Of a stretch of DNA of 25,606 nt, positions 2,803 to 25,488 are shown in pieces (the first letter of the stretch is position 1; the number at the start of each line of letters is the position of its first letter). Position numbers and translations under genes: made by a program. Origin of the DNA: a virus; IMG/VR virus record IMGVR_UViG_3300037189_005608, positions 1 through 25,606 of that record. One strand, written 5' to 3'. A model generated the notes under the pieces. It was given only the letters and a program-made list of their open reading frames with translations. It had not been told where the DNA came from and did not search any database.

Positions 2803-3774
2803 ATGTTTGATATCCTGACAATTATTCCGGGAAAGAAGAAGCTTACCCAAAGTGGCTGGACTAGCTTCAATGCGGTCTGCTGTCATCACCGCGGGCACAA
2901 AGCTGACAAGAGAAGCAGAGCAGGCATTAGATTTGATGGCGACAACTGGAGCTATCACTGCTTCAATTGTGATTTCAAAGCAGGTTTTCAGTTAGGAAAG
3001 AGTATCAGCCGCAACACAAGACAGTTACTTGAATGGTGCGGTATTGAACAGAATCAGATTGCTAAGTGGAATCTAGAAAGCTTACAACAAAAAGACCTGC
3101 TTGATTTTATCAAGGTAAGAAAAGAAAAGAAGAAAGTAAAGTTCAAAGAACTATCGCTGCCGGATGCTGAATTGCTTGATACTACTAATGAAAAACATAA
3201 GGTCTTCATTGAATATTTGAGCAGCCGAGCTATAAAGCATGATGAGTATCCTTTTATGGTTACTCCTGATGAGCAAGGCAGAAATAGTAACAGAATCATT
3301 ATCCCTTATACGTTTGAGGGCAAGATAGTAGGGCATACTAGTAGGTATCTTGATGACAGAACACCAAAGTTCATCAAAGAACAGCAGACTGGGTATGTGT
3401 TTGGATATGATTTTCAGAAGCCTAATTGGGAAATTTGCTTAGTAGTTGAGGGTATCTTTGACGCCCTTTCTCTTAACGCCTGTGCGCTAACCCATGATAC
3501 AATTAGTGATGAGCAAGCAGAGATACTACGAAGGCTTAATCGCAAAGTGATTGTCGTTCCAGACTTAGATAAGACTGGACTAGCAATTTGCGATAGAGCA
3601 TTAGAGCTAGGGTTTCATGTCGCCATTCCCGAATGGAGTGATGAGATAAAAGATGCTAATGATGCAGTAGTAAAATATGGCAAATTGCCGACACTGCTAA
3701 GTATACTGAAAAGTGCAACTAACAGTAAGATCAAATTACAGATGATAAGGACAAAACTTGCTAAAAGAATATAA
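2803..3774 (+). CDS. 61: DNA primase, T4 gp61-like
   Basis: This 323-residue protein (T4 gp61 is about 340) has primase architecture. An N-terminal zinc-binding module lies at residues 26-56, with CCHH (26-29) and CFNC (53-56). A central region follows. A Toprim domain is then visible as LVVEGIFDAL (213-222, Glu216) and VVPDLDKTG (251-259, Asp254 and Asp256), followed by AIPEWSDEIKDANDAV (274-289). It should make RNA primers for lagging-strand synthesis together with the gp41-type helicase encoded next. There is no Shine-Dalgarno sequence; the ATG sits at the predicted +1 of the sigma70-type promoter. The 3' end overlaps the helicase gene by 17 bases. Confidence 0.9.
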   Translation: MFDILTIIPGKKKLTQSGWTSFNAVCCHHRGHKADKRSRAGIRFDGDNWSYHCFNCDFKAGFQLGKSISRNTRQLLEWCGIEQNQIAKWNLESLQQKDLLDFIKVRKEKKKVKFKELSLPDAELLDTTNEKHKVFIEYLSSRAIKHDEYPFMVTPDEQGRNSNRIIIPYTFEGKIVGHTSRYLDDRTPKFIKEQQTGYVFGYDFQKPNWEICLVVEGIFDALSLNACALTHDTISDEQAEILRRLNRKVIVVPDLDKTGLAICDRALELGFHVAIPEWSDEIKDANDAVVKYGKLPTLLSILKSATNSKIKLQMIRTKLAKRI

Positions 3775-5164
3775 CACTGATATACAACGTCTATTCCTTC
3801 AGATGATGGTCACTAATTCCGAGTTGTATACTCGTGTCATGAACATCATGAATCCAGAAAACTTTGATCGTAGTCTAAGAAACGTTGCGGAATTTATCGT
3901 AGAGCATACTGCCAAGTATAGCATTATGCCTGATATAACGCAGATTAAAGCAACCACAGGTGAAGCAATTGACCATATCGAAGACTTGTCTGATGGACAT
4001 TACGAATGGTTTTTGGAAGAATTTGAGTCGTTCACTAAGCGTCAGGAGCTTGAAAGAGCTATTCTTAAAGCAGCCGATATGCTTGAGAAGGGGGAGTTTG
4101 ACCCGGTCGAACAACTAATCAAAGATGCAGTGCAAATCAGTCTACAGCGTGACATGGGTACAGATTATTTCGCTGACCCTAAGGAACGATTGAACAAGTA
4201 TTTCAATGCAGGTGGTCAGGTATCTACTGGTTGGCCCCAGCTTGACAGAGTTATGTATGGTGGAATGAGTCGTGGCGAGTTGAACATCTTTGCAGGCGGC
4301 TCTGGTTCTGGTAAGTCACTTGTCATGATGAACATTGCACTTAACTGGCTCAGTCAGGGACTTAGTGGGGTCTATATCACTCTCGAACTTTCAGAGGAAT
4401 TGACATCGCTTCGTACTGATGCTATGTTGACTAATATGAGTACTAGAGACATTCGAAAGAATTTGGATGATACTGAATTGCGAGTCAAGATGGCTGGTAA
4501 GAAGTTCGGTAAGTATCGTGTTAAAGCACTTCCGGCACAGAGTAACGTCAACGCTATTCGTTCTTATATTAAAGAAGTGCAGATTCAGACTGGTATCAAG
4601 GTTGATTTCGTAATGATTGACTATCTTGATTTGGTCATGCCGGTGTCTGTCAAAGTCAATCCTAACGACCAGTTCATCAAGGACAAGTATGTATCAGAAG
4701 AACTTCGCAATCTAGCGAAAGAACTTGGTGTTCTTCTCATCACTGCATCACAGTTAAATCGTAGTGCAGTTGAAGAAATCGAATTCGATCACAGTCACAT
4801 TGCAGGCGGTATTTCTAAGATTAATACTGCTGACTATGTGTTCGGTATCTTTACGTCACGTTCTATGAAAGAGCGCGGCAAGTATCAGATTCAGTGTATG
4901 AAGTCTCGTAGTTCCACTGGGGTAGGTCAGAAGATTGATTTGGAATACAACATTGAAACTATGCGTATTACTGATGACGATCCAGAAGAGGGTAGACAGC
5001 AACAGCCTACTCCTAATCAAATACTAAGTCAAATTAAAACTACGAGTCAAGTAGGTTCTACTAACGATGCAGTGCATAATACAATTGAACAAAAGGAAAC
5101 TAAAGGTGTAGGGGACGCACAATCCGCTAAATTAAAGTCACTATTGAACTCACTTAAGAAATGA
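3758..5164 (+). CDS. 41: Replicative DNA helicase, T4 gp41/DnaB-like
   Basis: This 468-residue RecA-fold hexameric helicase unwinds DNA ahead of the fork. An N-terminal helical domain (residues 1-130) precedes the motor domain. Walker A is GGSGSGKS (180-187), Walker B is FVMIDYLD (284-291), and the motif with the sensing Gln is ITASQLNRS (328-336); an SRSSTGVGQ segment (383-391) fits the arginine-finger region. A Pro/Gln- and Thr-rich tail follows residue 415 and ends in a short basic helix (LKSLLNSLKK), a possible partner-binding tip. The start is TTG at 3758, inside the primase gene, preceded by AAGG; the overlap suggests coupled synthesis of the two primosome subunits. Confidence 0.93.
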   Translation: MLKEYNTDIQRLFLQMMVTNSELYTRVMNIMNPENFDRSLRNVAEFIVEHTAKYSIMPDITQIKATTGEAIDHIEDLSDGHYEWFLEEFESFTKRQELERAILKAADMLEKGEFDPVEQLIKDAVQISLQRDMGTDYFADPKERLNKYFNAGGQVSTGWPQLDRVMYGGMSRGELNIFAGGSGSGKSLVMMNIALNWLSQGLSGVYITLELSEELTSLRTDAMLTNMSTRDIRKNLDDTELRVKMAGKKFGKYRVKALPAQSNVNAIRSYIKEVQIQTGIKVDFVMIDYLDLVMPVSVKVNPNDQFIKDKYVSEELRNLAKELGVLLITASQLNRSAVEEIEFDHSHIAGGISKINTADYVFGIFTSRSMKERGKYQIQCMKSRSSTGVGQKIDLEYNIETMRITDDDPEEGRQQQPTPNQILSQIKTTSQVGSTNDAVHNTIEQKETKGVGDAQSAKLKSLLNSLKK

Positions 5165-5178
5165 TTTTCAGACTTAAG

Positions 5179-5187
5179 AATAAATAC
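5179..5187 (+). promoter_or_regulatory. T4-type late promoter (AATAAATAC)
   Basis: AATAAATAC lies 15 bases past the helicase stop and predicts +1 near 5192. It would drive the four overlapping genes from 5212 to 8759. A direct repeat of ACTTAAGAA (about 5153 and 5173) lies immediately upstream. Confidence 0.75.
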
Positions 5188-5211
5188 ATTCAGTAGGATC
5201 TTTACACTATT

Positions 5212-5460
5212 ATGCAAAAAAAGACTCGTAGCCTTTTAGAAGAACTCCAATCGTTCGGGGATACCCGTGATATTAATAATATCATTGAAAACCGTGCGTC
5301 CAACATTATTACTAGTGCTATCAATTTGATTGAATTGATGCAAAAACACTATCCTTCCGATAAGGCAGAACTGCTTGAGAAGAAATTGTTGAGTGCAATT
5401 AAGGGTAAAGATCAAGCAAGATTTGCAAAGTCCTTAAGGAAGAAAAATGAAAATAAGTGA
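5212..5460 (+). CDS. Small conserved-type phage protein, 82 residues
   Basis: This mostly helical protein has a heptad-like run (NIITSAINLIELMQKHY, about residues 31-47) and a basic tail. It is the first gene behind the late promoter at 5179. AGGA at 5195-5198 lies 13 bases before the ATG, a long spacing. Its last 14 bases overlap the next gene, whose ATG lies inside the final codons. The style (TRSLLEEL start, then a helical bundle) resembles small unknowns near gene 41 in marine T4-like phages, but I cannot assign a function. Confidence 0.65.
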   Translation: MQKKTRSLLEELQSFGDTRDINNIIENRASNIITSAINLIELMQKHYPSDKAELLEKKLLSAIKGKDQARFAKSLRKKNENK

Positions 5461-6811
5461 ATTCAAAAAGCTTGAAGAACAAATAGAAAAGCAGAAATTA
5501 GATGAGCTTAGTCTAAGCAGTTTTATCGGAGATTTCGGATCAGCCGCAGTAAAAAGTGCGTTTTCTGGTAAAGGTCTCAAGCAACAGATGATTCAAGACA
5601 TGTTCTTGAAAGATTTTTACGATGACGCTTACACTTCACTTGATAATGCAATTAAAGGTCGAGTAGTAAACCCTAAAGTAAAAGGAACTCTTTCACCCAC
5701 AGCCGTTGAAAAGAATCCTGCTGATGTCAAGCCCGAACCGGGAGAACCAGGAGCTAAACCTACTCCCACAGCTCCAACTGCTTCAGGAACACCCGCAGTT
5801 CCAGGAACACCTTCGGCAGCTCCAGCTACCCCCGGAGCACCCGCAGCCAAAACAAGTGCTACAGCACCCGCAGTTGCAGCTAATAAGTCACAGCAGCAAA
5901 CAACGCAGAATATCAATAACTACGTTAAGCAGGCTGCACAATCAATTAATCAAGCTACTGATAAAAATCAAAAAATTGCACTTACAAAAGAACTTGTAAA
6001 CTCTATGGCTGACCGTCAAGGAACGCCCGAATGGAATAACGCTGTTAAAGGCGTTGAAGGTATTATTAAACGAGCAGGAACTGATCCTGCTTTTGCCAAT
6101 CAAGCGGTTAATAATCTTCGTTTAGGTAAAACTATGTCAGAAGCTTGGCGAATCTATTTCGCTAACAAGTTGGTAGAAGCAGTAGGACTTACTTGGAAAG
6201 ACTTGGGTCTTTCTGTACTGAAAGAGGGTAAGAACTACTATATTGCTGAAACTCGCTACGTTAAACTAAACCAATTATTCGAAAGCATTATGGAAGTTAC
6301 AACAGGCGGTGTCGGTTTCGGAGCTACACCTGCTGGAACTACTGCAACAGTCGGTAAAGCAGGGTCAACTCCTGCCCCACAAAACATCAATCTTCCGCCT
6401 AATGCTACTCTAAATACTCCTACAGTTCCTGCAACTCAACAAGCGCAATCACGCGGCGGACCGCAAAGCGTTGGTCAGTATATACTAGCTTGGTTTAATC
6501 AGTATATGAATGGTGTAGACTGGAAAGCTAGTGAAGATACGGTTTTGCCTCTGATTCAGGCAATCGAAGATTCTTATCCTTCAGGATATAAGAATGCAAT
6601 CAAAACACTAGCAAGAACTGCATTTGCGATTTCTAAAGCTTCACCTTCATTACCTGCTGGCATCAAAGATGAAACTGATAAACTTGATAAACCTGATGAA
6701 GAAGAACCAAAATCCGGTAGTGTTTGGGACGGGGTATTTAAAAAGCCCGGAGCAGATGCAGAAAATCCCGATGCTAAAAAAACTACAACAGAGTCAAGAC
6801 GCCGCAGATGA
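5447..6811 (+). CDS. Pro/Ala-linker multidomain protein, putative virion-associated
   Basis: This 454-residue protein has alternating folded and disordered parts. A helical, charged N-terminus with two Gly/Ser-Phe segments occupies residues 1-75. A Pro/Ala/Thr-rich linker follows (about 80-150), then a helical domain (about 150-285, including EAWRIYFANKLVEAVGL), a second Thr/Pro/Gln linker (about 285-345), and a C-terminal helical domain (about 345-420) containing SVGQYILAWFNQYMNGVDW. The tail is acidic, then basic (ESRRRR). There is no enzymatic motif. Its expression from a late promoter and its coupling to the nucleotidyltransferase (ATGA overlap at 6808) suggest a late or virion role; the linkers suggest a tether or adaptor. 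Function unknown. Confidence 0.6.
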   Translation: MKISEFKKLEEQIEKQKLDELSLSSFIGDFGSAAVKSAFSGKGLKQQMIQDMFLKDFYDDAYTSLDNAIKGRVVNPKVKGTLSPTAVEKNPADVKPEPGEPGAKPTPTAPTASGTPAVPGTPSAAPATPGAPAAKTSATAPAVAANKSQQQTTQNINNYVKQAAQSINQATDKNQKIALTKELVNSMADRQGTPEWNNAVKGVEGIIKRAGTDPAFANQAVNNLRLGKTMSEAWRIYFANKLVEAVGLTWKDLGLSVLKEGKNYYIAETRYVKLNQLFESIMEVTTGGVGFGATPAGTTATVGKAGSTPAPQNINLPPNATLNTPTVPATQQAQSRGGPQSVGQYILAWFNQYMNGVDWKASEDTVLPLIQAIEDSYPSGYKNAIKTLARTAFAISKASPSLPAGIKDETDKLDKPDEEEPKSGSVWDGVFKKPGADAENPDAKKTTTESRRRR

Positions 6812-7674
6812 GCATCTTAACTGAAGGTGGGGCAATGCCCGGTGTTGGTGCAATCCATATTGATGAGATTGAACCCACATTGGATAGCCTAGAAAAGATT
6901 TTAGGCATTGACCTCAAGAACAACACTTTAGGTAGCGTAGGCAAGAAAGAATTTTCTGGCGATATCGATGTTGCTCTTGAAATAGACCCAGAGGATATTC
7001 CTGCATTCGTAGAGAAATTACAGAATATTCCAGAAGTGCTAGACCTTGCAAAAAGTTCAGTAATCATGACTAAGGTTAAGATTGCTAACTATGATCCAAA
7101 CAAACAAGTACAAGGTAAACCAAGAACAGGGTATGTTCAATTAGACTTCATGCCCGGCGAACCGGGCTGGCTCAAGACTTACTATCACGCACCCCAGGAG
7201 AAAGATAGCAAGTACAAGGGAGTGTATAGAAATCTTTTACTAGCATCAATTGTTGCCCGCGTAAATCGTAAGGACTCAGAACAAAAACTACCCGATGGCA
7301 GAGCTATGCAATCAGAACGATATATGTGGAGCCCAACTGACGGGTTGGTAAAAGTATTAAGAACTCCTGAACCTAACAAGAAGGGCGATGGCTACACTAA
7401 GAAAAATAATAACAAGATTATCGACGGTCCATATAAAGACCCAAATGAAATTGCCAAAGTGTTGAAACTTGGTACTGCTGATAGTTTATATTCATATGAA
7501 ACATTACGTAAGGCAATGGACGAAAATTATCCATCTGAATTAGTAAACCTTATGCTTAAAGATTTCTCAGAAAATCCTACAGTACGTGACATCGGTGTTC
7601 CTACTGATATCAAGCTTAGCGAGAGCGTAGGTACATCTGACTGGTTCAGAACATTGCTGGACATCGTAAAATGA
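6808..7674 (+). CDS. Pol-beta-superfamily nucleotidyltransferase-like protein
   Basis: This 288-residue protein carries the Pol-beta-type nucleotidyltransferase signature: LGSVGKKEFSGDID (41-54), i.e. the GS motif (Gly42-Ser43) followed by the catalytic pair Asp52 and Asp54, with the expected third carboxylate in VQLDF (Asp113). This fold transfers a nucleotide to RNA, DNA, protein or a small molecule; the substrate cannot be read from the sequence. A Lys-rich stretch (about residues 187-210) could bind nucleic acid. The ATG overlaps the upstream stop, and the 3' end overlaps the ligase-fold gene (ATGA), so it is embedded in a coupled late operon. Phage toxins and tRNA-repair enzymes share this fold, but the late-operon setting argues against a simple toxin. 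Confidence 0.7.
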   Translation: MSILTEGGAMPGVGAIHIDEIEPTLDSLEKILGIDLKNNTLGSVGKKEFSGDIDVALEIDPEDIPAFVEKLQNIPEVLDLAKSSVIMTKVKIANYDPNKQVQGKPRTGYVQLDFMPGEPGWLKTYYHAPQEKDSKYKGVYRNLLLASIVARVNRKDSEQKLPDGRAMQSERYMWSPTDGLVKVLRTPEPNKKGDGYTKKNNNKIIDGPYKDPNEIAKVLKLGTADSLYSYETLRKAMDENYPSELVNLMLKDFSENPTVRDIGVPTDIKLSESVGTSDWFRTLLDIVK

Positions 7675-8759
7675 GAATAGTTGAACTACTAAACGAATCA
7701 CGGTTGCTTGAAGCAGATGCTAGAACTCCCCATCCTGAGGATTCAGTACTCAGCGGAGTGTCCTCTGCTCGTGATGCTGTTGATTCAATGTATCATGTAA
7801 TTGATAATCCAGAAACACTCACTATCAAGTGGGACGGTTTCCCAGCTCTTATCTTTGGATACAATGACAAAGGACAATTCACTGTATCAGACAAATATAT
7901 GTTTGATAAAGGTACTGAGTACTTAGGAACAAGCCCTAAGTTTTGGCAAGAGTATGATGCTAGTAGAGGCAAGAGTCGCCCAGATTTGTACGGTAGACTC
8001 AATTCTATTTGGAATGGATTGAAAGACGCGGTAGGCGCTAACAAAGGCTTCTTTTGGGGAGACTTGATGTGGGGCGAACAACTAAACCCGGTCGACGGCA
8101 AGTTCGTATTCAAGCCCAATACTGTAACTTATGCAGTTCCTGTAAAGAGTGAGCTAGGTAATATCATTGCTGGAACCAGCGGAGGTGTTGCAGTTCATCA
8201 GTATTTTGCTGATATTAGTTCACCTCCCGTGCCATGGAACGGCAAAGGTCTACAGAGTAACAGTCAGGTTGCTATTCTCACTCCGAATATGGGCATTGAT
8301 TTTGCATTAGAAGCTCCTAAGAATGAAGTTTCGAATGTCAATCAAGCACTTGCTAAGAATGGTAAACTGGATGACTTCTTGAATGGCATGGATGGTGTGG
8401 CAAGAAACGCTCTAATGAAATACTTAGGACACACAGCAACTAGGCAAACTAACTTGCCACTAGAGCAATGGCTACAAAACAATGTCAGTGGTAAGCAATA
8501 TCGATTCTTGGTCGGGGAAAACGACGGTTATCTTTTCCAAAACAAGGAAGCATTAGATAATCTTATTGAATTGTACTTTGCTATCGCCGAACTTAAAAAT
8601 AGTCTTTCCGATCAACTTGAACAGCAGGTTAAAGGACTAGAACAATCAATCAATGATAGACCGGGCGGCGAAGGATTTGTCTTCAATACTCCTAAGGGAC
8701 TAGTTAAGTTAGTCAATCGCGGCGGTTTTAGTGCTGCTCACTTTGGAAAGAAAAAGTAA
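7671..8759 (+). CDS. Ligase-fold (covalent nucleotidyltransferase) protein, putative nucleic-acid ligase
   Basis: This 362-residue protein shows the spaced motifs of ATP-dependent DNA/RNA ligases and capping enzymes. Motif I is KWDG (53-56, the Lys that would take AMP). SDKYMFDKG (73-81) follows; GFFWGDLMWG (126-135) resembles motif III with Asp in place of Glu. Motif IV is EGFVF (334-338) and motif V is LVKLV (344-348). The 278 residues between motifs I and IV make it larger than a minimal ligase, with a helical insert near residues 215-330. It ends the late operon and overlaps the Pol-beta-type gene by 4 bases. T4 late RNA ligase 1 (gp63) is a precedent for a ligase that also serves tail-fibre assembly. 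Activity and substrate are inferred. Confidence 0.65.
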   Translation: MRIVELLNESRLLEADARTPHPEDSVLSGVSSARDAVDSMYHVIDNPETLTIKWDGFPALIFGYNDKGQFTVSDKYMFDKGTEYLGTSPKFWQEYDASRGKSRPDLYGRLNSIWNGLKDAVGANKGFFWGDLMWGEQLNPVDGKFVFKPNTVTYAVPVKSELGNIIAGTSGGVAVHQYFADISSPPVPWNGKGLQSNSQVAILTPNMGIDFALEAPKNEVSNVNQALAKNGKLDDFLNGMDGVARNALMKYLGHTATRQTNLPLEQWLQNNVSGKQYRFLVGENDGYLFQNKEALDNLIELYFAIAELKNSLSDQLEQQVKGLEQSINDRPGGEGFVFNTPKGLVKLVNRGGFSAAHFGKKK

Positions 8760-19536: not shown

Positions 19537-20238
19537 ATGATTATTTATCTATATCACAAACGTCATCTTAAAACAGGACTTAATTACTTTGGCAAAACGA
19601 CATCTGAACCGTATACCTATGCGGGATCAGGAAAATATTGGAAACGACATTTAAATAAGCATGGTCTAGACATAGAGACTGTTTCTGTTTGGGAATTTCA
19701 GAATCAAGAAGATTGCACTGACTTTGCACTAAGATTTTCTACAGAAAATGATATAGTTGAGTCTAAAGATTGGGCCAATTTAAAAGCCGAAAATGGTAAA
19801 GATGGTGGCGATCCTGGACCAGCAGGACGGAAAAAAATTGCTGAAGCGCATGTCGGTAGAAAACACTCAGTAGAACAAAATAAACAAAAAAGCAACCGAC
19901 AAACTGGAATAAAGCGTTCTCCTGAATATCTTGCAAAAAAGGTAGGCAAGAAATATAAAAAATCAAAAGAAAGAACCGCACCAAATAAAAATAAAGGAAG
20001 ACCTTTGCCTAAAGCTTGGGTAGAGAAAAGTGCAACCTCTAGAAGAGGGATGAAATACAATATAGTGACATGTCCTCACTGTAATAAACAGGGAGGGTCA
20101 TCATCAATGCCTAGATGGCACTTTGATAATTGTAAACTAAAATCTTATACTACTGGGGGAACAGGGGGTAGCGTCGGCTGTAATACCGACGATAGTGGCT
20201 GTGCCTGCGGAACAAATGTTCCTTCACTATTTAGATAG
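19537..20238 (+). CDS. GIY-YIG homing endonuclease
   Basis: This 233-residue free-standing endonuclease has an N-terminal GIY-YIG domain (YLY at 4-6, YFG at 17-19, GSGKYWKRH at 30-38, catalytic-type Glu70 in FSTEN). DNA-binding NUMOD3-like repeats follow (VGRKHSVEQNKQKS at about 106-119 and IKRSPEYLAKK at 125-135), then a basic stretch and a C-terminal zinc finger (Cys179, Cys182, His195, Cys199). The natural end of the family seems to be near Lys202 (20142). The last 31 residues read antisense through the end of the gp14-like gene. It is the only plus-strand gene between two minus-strand tail genes, as expected for a mobile insertion. AAAGGAG precedes the ATG. Confidence 0.88.
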   Translation: MIIYLYHKRHLKTGLNYFGKTTSEPYTYAGSGKYWKRHLNKHGLDIETVSVWEFQNQEDCTDFALRFSTENDIVESKDWANLKAENGKDGGDPGPAGRKKIAEAHVGRKHSVEQNKQKSNRQTGIKRSPEYLAKKVGKKYKKSKERTAPNKNKGRPLPKAWVEKSATSRRGMKYNIVTCPHCNKQGGSSSMPRWHFDNCKLKSYTTGGTGGSVGCNTDDSGCACGTNVPSLFR

Positions 20239-21869
20239 ATTTCTTCTTGATCATTAATAAATCCTGATAGTTGCGATTTATCCTCGACAGTGAATCCAGT
20301 CTCAGTTCTTACGTTCTCACTGATTCTAACCCAAATTCTACCGTCCCAACGATACAATAGCTGGGGATTGTAGTCTATGCGTAAGAAATAGTCCCCGACT
20401 TGCGGATTCTGCGGAAACGCAATACCAGCGCCAGTCGGATAACCATTAGGTGCTTGACCGTCGCCAGTAAGCATTCCTGCTGAGTAACCAAATGATCTAG
20501 GACTCGAACGAACAATAAACTGATATCTAGGATCACAGTCTGCACGATAGTCCATTTGCTGAGTAATGTCACCGGTGAATCCGGGTAGTTCAGGATTTTG
20601 ATCTGCGGTAGCATAGGTATTATCAGCAGTTCCGTATGGTCCGTCGATGATGCCAAACGATTGCACTGATAATAGCTTAGTAGTTTCTACTGAACCAGAA
20701 CCACTTCCGATTCTTTCTGGAGCCTGCTCGACCATTTCTAAACTTGCTTGTACGAATTTATTAATTTTGTCATCCATTGACATATGGTCACTATCTGCGG
20801 TCATATCCCAAATAGATTGCAGTGCATTTTTTGATACTTTGATGCCTGCACTTGCATATTTGTACTTTGGATTACGCATATAGACAACCTGCCCAGACGG
20901 TGATGTATTGCTAGTTGTAGGAATTGTGTTAACATCAATTGGCGGCGCAGGTTGATTATACTTACCGGATAGTGTAGTGTTTGACTCGTACTCGCCGTAT
21001 GTTGGAACAACATATAGCTTACTAGTATCGTATCCTGCTTTGGGTACTAACCTCTGTGCTTCTCGTAGTGCAGCATCATTGATTGCGATGTTCTTACTAT
21101 AGGTTGAGAGAATACTAGCCAAACTATCATTTTCCTTTAGCAACCAATATGTTGGGTTAGGAGGACTAATTCCAATCGGAACTTCTATAATTGATTCGTA
21201 AATTTTGTCTCCGAACGCAATAGTATAGCCCGGTGGATAAGTTCTATCCTTATCCCAATCACCGAGATAGTTGTCTTGATTGATCGGCTCTTTAAGAATG
21301 TCAGTAAATTCTTCACTGTTGACAAGTGGTTCACACTTAATACGCCATAAGTGAGGATACCAAGTTTGACTAAAGCCCTCACTTGCATAGTTACTATCCG
21401 TAATTTGATAGAATCTCTTTAATGCAACTGGAATAGTTTCGTTGAGTGGATTGTAATCAAGTAAGTGCGGAAGTTCCAGTACGTCACCGACCATAAGTTT
21501 TCTACCTACAAGATCTATCATATCGTTGTAGTGGACAGTGATAAAGATGATATCATTATTCAGGAACAGCCCGAATTGGCTTAAGTCAAAATCTAAGTTC
21601 TGTACGTTATAGTGACCACGTAAACGATAGATATCTTTGTCATACTTTCTATCTCGGTTCTCTAAGAACAACAAGTCTTGAATGTTTAATGGGTCTAGCG
21701 TATCATAGTTGGGCTGAGTAAAATCAGTTGAAGTATCACCTGTTGCTGGACCTAAATATTTGTGAATATATAGGTCTGTGCCGCCCACGGTGAATTGCTC
21801 GGCTATCGTTCTGTCTAGAAAGCGATAGTCGTTTTGTTTGTTCGAACGATATAAACTTAACTTTGGCAT
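20145..21869 (-). CDS. Neck protein, putative T4 gp14-like, enlarged
   Basis: This 574-residue virion protein starts MPKLSLYRSNKQNDYRFLD (ATG 21869). Residues 92-190 follow a gp14-like pattern: LSQFGLFLNND, then MVGDVLELP (126-134), RFYQITD and LWRIKCEPL. A W-x5-YPPG...YES...PTYW segment (205-242) resembles a small CBM5/12-type carbohydrate-binding fold, and GDYFLRIDYNPQLLYRWDG near the C-terminus is another surface module. T4 gp14 is only 256 residues. The position upstream of gp15 in the same orientation supports gp14, but the identity is not certain. An upstream in-frame TTG (21911) is less likely. There is no Shine-Dalgarno sequence; the late promoter abuts the ATG. The 3' end overlaps the endonuclease by 94 bases. 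Confidence 0.7.
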   Translation of the reverse strand: MPKLSLYRSNKQNDYRFLDRTIAEQFTVGGTDLYIHKYLGPATGDTSTDFTQPNYDTLDPLNIQDLLFLENRDRKYDKDIYRLRGHYNVQNLDFDLSQFGLFLNNDIIFITVHYNDMIDLVGRKLMVGDVLELPHLLDYNPLNETIPVALKRFYQITDSNYASEGFSQTWYPHLWRIKCEPLVNSEEFTDILKEPINQDNYLGDWDKDRTYPPGYTIAFGDKIYESIIEVPIGISPPNPTYWLLKENDSLASILSTYSKNIAINDAALREAQRLVPKAGYDTSKLYVVPTYGEYESNTTLSGKYNQPAPPIDVNTIPTTSNTSPSGQVVYMRNPKYKYASAGIKVSKNALQSIWDMTADSDHMSMDDKINKFVQASLEMVEQAPERIGSGSGSVETTKLLSVQSFGIIDGPYGTADNTYATADQNPELPGFTGDITQQMDYRADCDPRYQFIVRSSPRSFGYSAGMLTGDGQAPNGYPTGAGIAFPQNPQVGDYFLRIDYNPQLLYRWDGRIWVRISENVRTETGFTVEDKSQLSGFINDQEEIYLNSEGTFVPQAQPLSSVLQPTLPPVPPVV

Positions 21870-21874
21870 ATAGT

Positions 21875-21882
21875 TATTTATC
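21875..21882 (-). promoter_or_regulatory. T4-type late promoter, minus strand, abutting the gp14-like ATG
   Basis: Read on the minus strand, GATAAATA runs from 21882 to 21875. With its last A at -6, +1 is 21869, the first base of the gp14-like ATG. No ribosome site lies between them. Confidence 0.75.
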
Positions 21883-21886
21883 GGAA

Positions 21887-21923
21887 AAAAAAGGTTGACA
21901 TGGTTACCCAAAACTGTTATAAG
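21887..21923 (+). repeat. Promoter-bearing direct repeat, copy A
   Basis: Near-identical to 22499-22535: 35 of 37 bases match, the two differences being T/C changes in the spacer. It holds TTGACA, the block GGTTACCCAAAACTG and TATAAG. It lies upstream of the HNH gene. Confidence 0.92.
21895..21923 (+). promoter_or_regulatory. Sigma70-type promoter for the HNH gene
   Basis: TTGACA (21895-21900), 17-base spacer, TATAAG (21918-21923). Predicted +1 is near 21930. It diverges from the minus-strand gp14-like late promoter a few bases away. Confidence 0.88.
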
Positions 21924-21958
21924 AGTATATCAGCAACAGAAATGAAAAGTTGAGTATC

Positions 21959-22510
21959 ATGAAAATTAAAACTTCAGTCGAAAAGATCATCGTTTCTATG
22001 AATGATCGTCCTCGCTGTATTACACCTGGTTGTAACAACGCCGGGCAGCTAGTAAATCGTAATGTTTTTGGTCAGCCAATCTTCCGCTCATATTGCAGTT
22101 CGTGCCACACTAAGCGCCGGATTCGATTCCAAGAGAAACTGGCAGCTACTGACCGCCGGTCTGCTCCATGTTGTTCTGCTCCCGGATGCCGCAAAAAAAC
22201 GAGTATATCCGGCACAAACCGAAAAGGTGAACTTAAGTTTACTACCTATTGCCCGGAACATGTGGGGCTTGCTTCTGCACACCTTGCATTTCGTAAAACA
22301 TATTGTGAAAATCTTGACAGCCGATTTGGGTTTACTTGCACAACTACCATCATGCTAATGGCACAACTTGAAGTTGATCATATTGACGGTAACCCGTACA
22401 ACAATGATCCAAATAATTTACAAACACTTTGCAGTTGCTGCCACAAGTATAAAACAATTACTAATCGTGATTATGCTACCCCGGGTAGAAAAAAGCTGAA
22501 AAAAGGTTGA
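21959..22510 (+). CDS. HNH endonuclease with zinc-ribbon pairs
   Basis: This 183-residue protein has two Cys-rich modules (Cys20/25/46/49 and Cys71-72/77/98 with His101) and a C-terminal HNH nuclease motif: LEVDHIDGNPYNND (137-150) followed by NLQTLCSCCHKYKT (153-166). It should cut double-stranded DNA, as free-standing phage HNH enzymes do. The ATG at 21959 is preferred; a TTG three codons upstream is possible, and neither has a strong Shine-Dalgarno sequence. The gene is framed by two copies of the same promoter sequence, and the downstream copy overlaps its last codons. That suggests gain by duplication or insertion. Confidence 0.87.
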   Translation: MKIKTSVEKIIVSMNDRPRCITPGCNNAGQLVNRNVFGQPIFRSYCSSCHTKRRIRFQEKLAATDRRSAPCCSAPGCRKKTSISGTNRKGELKFTTYCPEHVGLASAHLAFRKTYCENLDSRFGFTCTTTIMLMAQLEVDHIDGNPYNNDPNNLQTLCSCCHKYKTITNRDYATPGRKKLKKG

Positions 22511-22535
22511 CACGGTTACCCAAAACTGCTATAAG
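22499..22535 (+). repeat. Promoter-bearing direct repeat, copy B
   Basis: Second copy of 21887-21923, displaced by 612 bases with no gap in the alignment. The first bases lie inside the end of the HNH gene. Confidence 0.92.
22507..22535 (+). promoter_or_regulatory. Sigma70-type promoter for the 67-residue early gene
   Basis: TTGACA (22507-22512), 17-base spacer, TATAAG (22530-22535). Predicted +1 is near 22542, leaving AAGGAGATAGTGTATG as a short leader with a strong ribosome site. Confidence 0.9.
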
Positions 22536-22559
22536 AAGACTATAGCAAGGAGATAGTGT

Positions 22560-22763
22560 ATGGGATATCGTGTTCTTCGTGACCGTGAGACTAAGTATCA
22601 GCCGCGCAAGGGTCTTGAAGGTCCCTTCTTCTATCCAAACGGTCGAGTAACATACTACGACCCGAAAGAGGGCGCATACTGGGACCCAACAACTGACTTT
22701 TATCTGTCTTTTGAGGAACAGAACGAACTCCAAAATATGATTTTTGATAAACTTAAGGCTTGA
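22560..22763 (+). CDS. Small early protein, 67 residues, unknown
   Basis: This is a charged, Tyr- and Pro-rich protein. A beta-type segment (GPFFYPNGRVTYYDPKEGAY, residues 21-40) is followed by a C-terminal helix (SFEEQNELQNMIFDKLKA). It has a consensus sigma70-type promoter and AAGGAG, so it should be made early and in quantity, as host-takeover proteins often are. No known family is recognised, and a role in takeover is only inferred. The stop overlaps the -35 region of the next promoter. Confidence 0.7.
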   Translation: MGYRVLRDRETKYQPRKGLEGPFFYPNGRVTYYDPKEGAYWDPTTDFYLSFEEQNELQNMIFDKLKA

Positions 22764-22788
22764 CATTGCAAGCCTACCGTTGTATAGT
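22760..22788 (+). promoter_or_regulatory. Sigma70-type promoter for the 386-residue early gene
   Basis: TTGACA (22760-22765), 17-base spacer, TATAGT (22783-22788). The -35 lies in a perfect inverted repeat GGCTTG/CAAGCC (22757-22774) that could be an operator. The flanking TTAAGGCTTGACA is shared with the promoter at 25492. Predicted +1 is near 22795. Confidence 0.9.
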
Positions 22789-22820: not shown

Positions 22821-23981
22821 ATGGCTCGTCGCCCCGCAATCATCAAAGCTAAGTCTACTAAGAAGACTACTCGTGCCCCTCGTCGCGGCGTCAATCGCTT
22901 TAGCTTGATGCCCACTGACAATTGGGATAAGGCTAGGTTCTTTGCTCACTATGATGTTGAGCGCAAAGATTGCGGCAACAAGGTTAGGGAGTATATCAAA
23001 CAGAACTTTCCTAAAGATGTACTGACTAAGATCAATCGTCTTCCTGATTGGAAGGTTGATATGTATAGTCATTGGGCTGCTACTGCCCATCTTCTTGAAG
23101 TTAATCCTAATCTTGTTCCAGATGGCTATAAGACTGGTCTCGTTAAGTGGATTGAGACGCTTGCCATTGAAGGTTCTGCACTCACTGCTAAGAAAGAAGA
23201 AACCGAAGGTGAAGAGAAGCCTAAGAAGGTAGTCAACATTCAGGAAATTATGCGTGAAAAGGCTGATGAAGCCTTCGGCGACATTGAAGCACTGTTTGAC
23301 GAATTTATTGATTCGGGCTGCTCTAAGGATTTCAGCGTTGACAAGAAGGTGGTAGGCGCACTGGCTACTCGTAATATTCTCCCGCAGCATATGGCTAGTG
23401 CTATCAAGCGTTATCAACGACTGCTTGACGAATATCTTGAAGTTCAGGGTGGCAAGTGCGATCAATTGAACGAGGGCTATAGTCACTATAGCAAGATGCA
23501 AATCCGTTACGCTATCAAGATTATCGAAGACATTATCGCCGAAATGAATGGCTACATCAGTCTTAAGCAGGCTACTAAGAAGCCTCGTGCTAAGAAGGCT
23601 GTACCTGTTGAAAAGATTGTCGCTCGTCTTAAGTATTGTAAGGCGTTTAAGGACGATGCACTCATGCTTGAACTTACTGGTCTAAGCCCCGTTAAGCTTC
23701 ATGAGAGCACCGAAGCTTGGGTCTATGACACTAAGAAGCGTAAGATGCATCACTACGTTGCAGACGCTTACAGTAAGTGTCTGATGGTCAAGGGCAATAC
23801 TATCATTGGTTTTGACAAGAAAGAAAGCGGCATGAAGACGCTTCGCAAGCCTGTTGAACAGATTAAGGCGTTGATGGGTAGTAAGCCCGTTGCTCGTAAG
23901 TATTTCAAGGAGATCAAGGCTGTTGAGGCTGTACCAAATGGTCGCTTCAATGCTGATATGGTCATCCTCAAAGCATTCTAA
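22821..23981 (+). CDS. Large basic early protein, 386 residues, unknown
   Basis: A soluble, Lys-rich protein whose N-terminus is a basic tail (ARRPAIIKAKSTKKTTRAPRR). A helical domain follows (about 35-115), then a Glu/Lys linker (about 118-135), a long helical region (about 135-255), a second basic linker (KKPRAKKAV) and a C-terminal alpha/beta domain (about 260-386). No catalytic or zinc motif is visible. It sits behind a consensus promoter with CAGGAGATATAATATG. Codon choice leans to CGT, AAG and CTT more than its neighbours, consistent with strong expression. The basic tail and linker suggest nucleic-acid binding. MazG follows after 11 bases. Confidence 0.75.
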   Translation: MARRPAIIKAKSTKKTTRAPRRGVNRFSLMPTDNWDKARFFAHYDVERKDCGNKVREYIKQNFPKDVLTKINRLPDWKVDMYSHWAATAHLLEVNPNLVPDGYKTGLVKWIETLAIEGSALTAKKEETEGEEKPKKVVNIQEIMREKADEAFGDIEALFDEFIDSGCSKDFSVDKKVVGALATRNILPQHMASAIKRYQRLLDEYLEVQGGKCDQLNEGYSHYSKMQIRYAIKIIEDIIAEMNGYISLKQATKKPRAKKAVPVEKIVARLKYCKAFKDDALMLELTGLSPVKLHESTEAWVYDTKKRKMHHYVADAYSKCLMVKGNTIIGFDKKESGMKTLRKPVEQIKALMGSKPVARKYFKEIKAVEAVPNGRFNADMVILKAF

Positions 23982-24642: not shown

Positions 24643-24665
24643 GTACAATAGAATAGAGGTCGTGG

Positions 24666-24702: not shown

Positions 24703-25488
24703 ATGGCAGCAGACCTTCTAGCAACACCAAATAACCAAGACTTAATTGAGTACAAGCAAGGACTCTTTGAGAACCTTCGTCTACGTATGGGCGGCGACAT
24801 TGTTGACCTCGAACTTGACCCTCAGCACTATGAAGCAGCATATAATTATGCCATCAAGCTTTACCGCCAAAGAGCGCAGAACGCTAACATAGAATCATAC
24901 ACACTCTTCACCGTACAGAAGAATGTGTATGAATACACGTTGCCCAGCGAATTCATCAACGTAAGATCCCTGTTCAGACGCACAGTAGGGCTTGAGACAG
25001 GTCCAAGTTCAACGTCATTTGACCCGTTCTCAAGTGCAATTCTCAATACCTATCTACTGAATTATAACTATACCGGTGGTCTTGCTACATACGATTTTTA
25101 TGCAGGCTACGTAGAACTTACAGCACGTATGTTTGGTGGTTATCTTACATATACCTTTAACCCGGTTAGTAAGTTGCTAAAGGTCACTAGAGACTTCAAA
25201 GGAACCGGCGAACGCATTCTTATTTGGGCAGACGTACAACGTCCCGAACTAGAATTGTTACAGGATCCTGGCGCAGGGGTTTGGATTGGCGACTATATCC
25301 TAGCAGTGCTTAAAGGCATCATTGGTGAAGCTCGTGAGAAGTTTCAATCAATTGCAGGTCCTGGTGGCGGAACGTCACTGAATGGTGCTGCTATGAAGGC
25401 TGAATCCAAAGCAGACCAAGAGCGATTGATAATGGAATTGAAAGCCTACGTAGATTATTCGCAGCCTCTCACTTGGGTACAAGGTTAA
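24703..25488 (+). CDS. 13: Neck protein, T4 gp13-like
   Basis: This 261-residue homologue of T4 gp13 (309 residues) forms, in T4, the head-neck collar with gp14, closing the filled head before tail joining. RLRMGGDIVDLELDPQHYEAAYNYAIKLY (about residues 26-54) aligns with T4's [28 protein letters not shown]. The C-terminal third matches as well: WIGDYILAVLKGIIGEA... GPGGGTSLNGAAM... aligns with T4 WVKDYATALAKELNGQ... LPGGVTIDGQRL.... Central loops are shorter than in T4. It follows early-type genes but has a late promoter nested in an inverted repeat, which would confine its translation to late infection. Confidence 0.9.
   Translation: MAADLLATPNNQDLIEYKQGLFENLRLRMGGDIVDLELDPQHYEAAYNYAIKLYRQRAQNANIESYTLFTVQKNVYEYTLPSEFINVRSLFRRTVGLETGPSSTSFDPFSSAILNTYLLNYNYTGGLATYDFYAGYVELTARMFGGYLTYTFNPVSKLLKVTRDFKGTGERILIWADVQRPELELLQDPGAGVWIGDYILAVLKGIIGEAREKFQSIAGPGGGTSLNGAAMKAESKADQERLIMELKAYVDYSQPLTWVQG

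Follow-up and report, generated by a model that had tools for sequence, protein, structure and literature searches.

A probable promoter-cassette exchange hotspot at duplicated sigma-70 promoters in an uncultured T4-related phage lineage

T4-type phages carry regulatory cassettes known as promoter early stem-loop (PeSL) elements (Arbiol et al. 2010; Comeau et al. 2014; via PMC4503421). As described there, they share several features with a locus found in the IMG/VR record IMGVR_UViG_3300037189_005608, the whole 25,606 bp of which is referred to here as the window. Both comprise repeats of a promoter, predicted here to be of early type, next to small ORFs that vary in a T4-related myovirus, offering homology for gene shuffling; in both, variable ORFs are bracketed by the repeats at places where related phages have gained or lost genes, seen here as empty alleles and exchange of cargo; and both lie in T4-type genomes, marked in this case by a gp15-type stabiliser and a late motif. 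In four relatives of the locus (L037, L044, L047 and L054), a strong terminator hairpin directly precedes the promoter (z -5.9 to -7.6), forming a composite terminator-promoter of the same kind. The differences from PeSLs are that the promoters in the window were not found to adjoin a terminator-like stem-loop (fold z -0.9 and +1.2), that the extended -10, like the conserved GGTTACCC spacer, is specific to this lineage, and that the phage is distant from T4. Hence the locus behaves as a hotspot of the PeSL-mediated type, although the copies in the window are not themselves strict PeSLs.

Two further systems invite comparison. The free-standing HNH homing endonucleases of T4 and its relatives, encoded by the mob genes, are likewise intergenic, lie between conserved genes and are absent from related alleles (PMC2988022). 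The HNH reading frame in the window ends in the promoter of the next gene, as downstream promoters are embedded in endonuclease genes in T4 (PMC2988022); however, it lies behind its own putative early promoter, whereas the same review reports no early promoter for the free-standing endonucleases of T4. The likeness is drawn through domain and position, with homing itself putative. The morons of lambdoid phages also consist of a single gene with its own promoter, gained or lost as a unit, but the present locus differs in the repeated promoter acting as a homology arm, in its T4-like setting and in having no terminator in the window.

The window is a genome fragment, and searches of the phage's own sequence cover this extent. 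Its predicted products include a tail sheath stabiliser of the gp15 type (PF16724, 70.8 bits) and, by PHROGs, structural proteins of the virion and MazG; together with a T4-type late promoter motif, these identify the phage as a T4-related myovirus, remote from those in culture. At the protein level, its closest isolated counterparts include Pseudomonas phage PA5oct (287 kb) and Agrobacterium phage Atu_ph07 (490 kb), at less than 50% identity covering part of the protein. No near relatives at the DNA level were found among isolated phages outside the MazG gene region, and a search of bacterial and archaeal genomes with the structural gene bordering the locus found no relative. As the closest proteins occur in very large phages, and relatives of the locus are carried on contigs of 340 kb (G020) and 364 kb (G016), the full genome is probably several times the length of the window, and the lineage is probably one of jumbo phages. 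Its habitat, at a guess, is fresh water.

The left border of the locus is a divergent virion structural gene of 574 aa (20145..21869, - strand, with the ATG at 21869; phrog_11591, E=1.6e-84). Its late-promoter-like motif, GATAAATA (21875..21882, - strand), lies back to back with the first promoter copy; a late promoter function is predicted from the T4 late consensus, and the motif [AGC]ATAAATA is also found directly 5' of other genes in the window (5179, 8787, 10205, 12812 and 24675). On the opposite strand is a free-standing HNH endonuclease gene of 183 aa (21959..22510, + strand), the cargo of the cassette, which matches the Pfam HNH domain at 22.4 bits (cut-off 21.4) as well as PHROG HNH families and has an intact nuclease motif (VDHIDGN..NN..H); a sequence search for relatives of solved structure returned none that was convincing. 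It is followed by ORF7 (67 aa, 22560..22763, + strand; phrog_13298, unknown function), which is the first gene after the promoter in HNH-less alleles and is 97-100% conserved in the close ones, and then by the right border, the conserved ORF8 (386 aa, 22821..23981, + strand; phrog_11903). ORF8 is preceded by a second sigma-70-like promoter, TTGACA-17-TATAGT (22760..22788, + strand; 11/12 hexamer matches), without the GGTTACCC spacer.

The first-pass annotation had described a repeat on both sides of the HNH gene, 612 bases apart and identical at 35 of 37 positions. The repeat is real, and is slightly longer: the copies at 21887..21924 and 22499..22536, both on the + strand with a period of 612 bp, agree in 36 of 38 columns. 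Each comprises TTGACA, a 17 bp spacer containing GGTTACCCAAAACTG, and TATAAG; in full, they read AAAAAAGG-TTGACA-T-GGTTACCCAAAACTG-T-TATAAG-A and AAAAAAGG-TTGACA-C-GGTTACCCAAAACTG-C-TATAAG-A, so that the two mismatches are the bases flanking the 15-mer (T..T in the first, C..C in the second). Both are near-consensus sigma-70 promoters with an extended -10 (TGnTATAA), from which promoter activity and early timing can be predicted. The search of the record for additional spacer copies that the annotation had recommended returned just these two: the 15-mer has two sites in the 25,606 bp, even when two mismatches are allowed, and when the promoter class is expressed as a profile of 36 positions, the first and second copies score 37.9 and 38.5 bits respectively, and the rest of the record at most 6.4 bits. 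A chance origin of the repeat is excluded. Separately, AGTAACCCAAAACCG at 8755-8769 matches the 15-mer with three mismatches, probably by chance; the profile search identifies no promoter there.

The copies differ in what follows them. Between the first and the HNH gene, which starts 35 bp past TATAAG, is a leader, ATATCAGCAACAGAAATGAAAAGTTGA... (21925..21958, + strand), common to first-position cassettes in relatives; these share promoter and leader but have unrelated ORFs, with similar leaders preceding the genes for HNH183, HNH148, HNH125, HNH145 and HNH152 and the 178-aa and 171-aa ORFs. The second copy is followed by another type of leader containing a Shine-Dalgarno sequence, CTATAGCAAGGAGATAGTGT (22537..22559, + strand), which also precedes many other downstream genes of the lineage. 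The HNH stop codon, TGA at 22508-22510, falls within the -35 hexamer TTGACA of the second copy, and HNH genes likewise terminate inside the next TTGACA in L015 and L037. As a result, a random deletion that extended beyond the HNH gene on its 3' side would damage the downstream promoter, whereas a promoter-to-promoter crossover would be clean; the T4 review makes the same argument for the retention of embedded promoters (PMC2988022).

Scanning IMG/VR with TTGACANGGTTACCCAAAACTG retrieved 30 contigs, and relatives of ORF8, used as an anchor, gave 80 loci. HNH-less alleles with one promoter, anticipated from the window alone, are indeed present in L018/L035, L020, L025/L073, L027 and L029/L036, at about 98% DNA identity to the window, and in more diverged form in L010, L050 and L053. 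In these empty alleles the single promoter has the left flank of the first copy and the right flank of the second, and the close ones carry the C..C bases of the second copy. The gap between the structural gene and ORF8 is 952 bp in filled alleles (the window and L033) and 338-340 bp in empty ones. That of L020 is 340 bp, a difference from the window of 612 bp, exactly one repeat period; the value of 339 bp in L018, L035, L036, L027 and L073 is due to one base fewer before an A-run. When the 612 bp unit is subtracted from the window, the result is 100% identical to L020 over 200 bp across the junction. L020 differs from the window by around 2% elsewhere, hence it is not the direct product of the window's allele.

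The suggestion that recombination between the copies would delete the gene cleanly and leave one promoter is therefore borne out to this extent: the empty alleles have the sequence expected from such a crossover removing the 612 bp unit. The same sequence would equally be expected had the unit entered by homology at a single promoter. The end states are alike for gain and for loss, and no contig caught the event within one population. The direction is instead suggested by the distribution of the gene: L033 has an identical copy (100%), as does L106 for the portion that it contains, and many neighbouring lineages lack the gene, hence its presence in the window is most likely a recent gain.

Across the relatives, the block belongs to a lineage-specific class of sigma-70 promoter, GG-TTGACA-N1-2-GGTTACCC-...TGN-TATAA, modelled by clustering sites by their downstream sequence (35 contexts, with 27 clear copies in the model). 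It is not specific to the HNH gene, as the same class precedes many other genes, both at this locus and elsewhere in related records: ORF7, several HNH types, 178-, 171- and 116-aa ORFs, rIIA and, away from the locus, small ORFs of unknown function. A degenerate copy without the GGTTACCC core is associated with the TonB-dependent receptor gene in L037 and L044. In the model search, promoter-bearing records had between one and seven clear sites, with seven in the 62 kb G004, three in the 111 kb G001 and two in the 72 kb G002, both of the latter around its HNH gene. The first-pass annotation had conceded that the block might occur at many promoters and so be an ordinary early-promoter feature; it is indeed a normal promoter of the sub-lineage, but a sparse one, concentrated in a single hotspot. 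A general role across the wider group is not supported, as the model matches the 340 kb G020 at three places, all weakly (19.9 bits at best), and the 364 kb G016 at none. Nor is the promoter part of a mobile unit of the HNH family, an idea ruled out by the homologues of the HNH gene situated elsewhere (L107-L136, 262 kb), none of which was found to have a copy. Hence the promoter is a feature of the phage lineage rather than of the HNH gene.

An unbiased scan from the left border, using the 19-mer GGCATATAGTTATTTATCG, identified 66 contigs, in which alleles have one promoter, two around one ORF (including the window, L028, L007/L051, L074, L008/L015/L016 and L058/L059) or three (L003/L005/L014). 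Outside the sub-lineage (e.g. L164 and L161), an ordinary single promoter lies immediately 5' of ORF8; within it, the slot contains the GGTTACCC promoter and variable cargo, which comprises several HNH types, the 178- and 171-aa ORFs, TonB-dependent receptors and, in L047, RIIA and RIIB homologues. The 178-aa ORFs of L028 and L064 are 93% identical, with ORF8 proteins that are 85% and 60% identical, respectively, to that of the window. Two contigs are mosaics. L033 has a structural gene like that of L050 (98.2%) and a right part like that of the window (99.6% in ORF8), the change occurring between 2430 and 2508, some 300-380 bp to the left of the first promoter copy. L058 has the structural gene of L064 (100%; 66% in ORF8) joined to a right half like that of L059, the switch occurring within 3679-3810, no more than 140 bp left of its first promoter (3820). 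These alignments show exchange at the slot, with the conserved flanks as well as the promoter apparently serving as homology. Crossover inside the 38 bp block as the sole breakpoint is not supported: the mapped breakpoints lie where the structural gene begins, in a conserved stretch, and in the region upstream of it, hence ordinary homology beyond the block matters at least as much.

Some of the variable genes merit description in their own right. A TonB-dependent receptor gene is carried at the hotspot in seven phage contigs (L037:5853-7643, L044:~4149-5975, L047:2047-3573, L048:5045-6646, L054:5931-7457, L063 and L004); the BtuB-like proteins combine a plug with a barrel domain (Pfam barrel E about 1e-43) and are 75-96% identical to one another. 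Translation of the L044 gene from a TTG start gives a signal-peptide-like N terminus, LKTFKLLVTTAALVFATAAQAES. Searching isolated-phage records by tblastn returned few matches, mostly to bacterial-looking sequence, and a literature search for phage-borne TonB receptors produced nothing relevant among the matches listed. The lysis-inhibitor homologues of L047, RIIA (4789-6948) and RIIB (7014-7910), also lie in the hotspot, RIIA immediately after a promoter copy. Elsewhere in the window, a second free-standing homing endonuclease gene (phrog_314, 19537-20238), with gp15 on one side and, on the other, the 3' end of the structural gene, which it overlaps antisense, is present in L106 and missing from L035, L036, L027 and L073, in which about 20 bp remain. 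L033 and L034 have an insert between window positions 24651 and 24668 (L034:2026-2974), before the late motif of the gene at 24703, with a 314-aa ORF that is possibly another endonuclease; its final codons and stop (GAT AAA TAA) form the late motif GATAAATA, so this is again a cargo gene ending within the promoter of the next gene.

The observations that the promoter is duplicated, that an exact empty allele exists, that other cargo occupies the slot and that mosaics break at or near it are probably best accounted for by a promoter-cassette exchange hotspot driven by homologous recombination at shared promoters and conserved flanks, although it is the mechanism, recombination, that we infer. 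The site would be the junction between a late operon, represented by the structural gene on the - strand, and an early operon containing ORF7 and ORF8 on the + strand. One-gene cassettes, each preceded by its own copy of one strong sigma-70 promoter bearing the GGTTACCC spacer, could be gained or lost there, with direct promoter repeats and conserved flanks acting as homology arms. Crossover between copies would remove one promoter along with its gene, leaving a working single promoter for the next gene; entry would be through the reverse event, or through exchange between co-infecting phages. Set against this, some records have sites outside the hotspot, showing that the promoter is also used elsewhere. 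The presence of the class before many genes, with up to seven copies in a 62 kb record, would fit a simpler account in which the block is an ordinary early promoter, present twice as two genes each need one and unrelated to gain or loss of the HNH gene. We consider this unlikely given the clean empty allele from which precisely one period is missing, the sparse, hotspot-concentrated distribution of the class and the different spacer of the region's other sigma-70-like promoter (22760). That the repeat is an artefact of mis-joined reads, conceivable for a metagenomic contig, is extremely improbable: the same filled structure recurs independently in the contig L033/L023, with its left half also present in L106/L019, and the same architecture is seen with diverged sequence in L015, L008, L016, L021 and others.

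The HNH protein might itself drive the exchange, by nicking an HNH-less allele near the slot such that repair copies the gene in, with promoter duplication incidental; this is a reasonable possibility, though with somewhat less than an even chance of being correct, and the same standing attaches to the idea that the duplication arose as the gene brought a promoter with it, leaving ORF7 with one. The intact HNH domain is in keeping with such homing, as is the HNH tract that is 100% identical between L033 and the window despite their different left backgrounds, with a long common tract on the right; furthermore, free-standing endonucleases of T4 home with distant cleavage sites, and often have promoters of downstream genes in their reading frames (PMC2988022). 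However, cargo other than endonucleases (the 178- and 171-aa ORFs, TonB receptor and rII genes) occupies the same slot behind like promoters, hence homing, which cannot account for such cargo, is not needed to explain the pattern, and may instead add to recombination at the promoters. The spacer had also been proposed to bind a regulator, and the GGTTACCC core could be a putative operator for a phage or host protein, conserved for regulation with recombination as a by-product. The sequence GGTTACC is near-palindromic, and the core is maintained before unrelated genes in two registers relative to the -35, shifted by 1 bp in some copies while the total spacing stays at 17. These features are compatible with, rather than a demonstration of, regulator binding; as recombination among copies, or promoter strength through the extended -10 TG, can also preserve a spacer, we regard this explanation as rather improbable.

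The swapping of small genes at reusable promoters is probably the process operating in this lineage, and would represent a variant of one already described in T4-like phages. It is a doubtful, if attractive, extension that the GGTTACCC-core promoter is both the operator for a dedicated regulator and a reusable exchange site, trading endonucleases, rII lysis-control genes and an entire phage-borne TonB-dependent receptor, all under a common control. The alleles described here document, at the level of single bases, the states before and after a gene is gained or lost at duplicated promoters in T4-like phages from the environment, and show the promoter to be a property of the phage lineage rather than of the endonuclease. 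With natural alleles exactly one repeat unit apart, PeSL-type shuffling becomes testable in an uncultured lineage.
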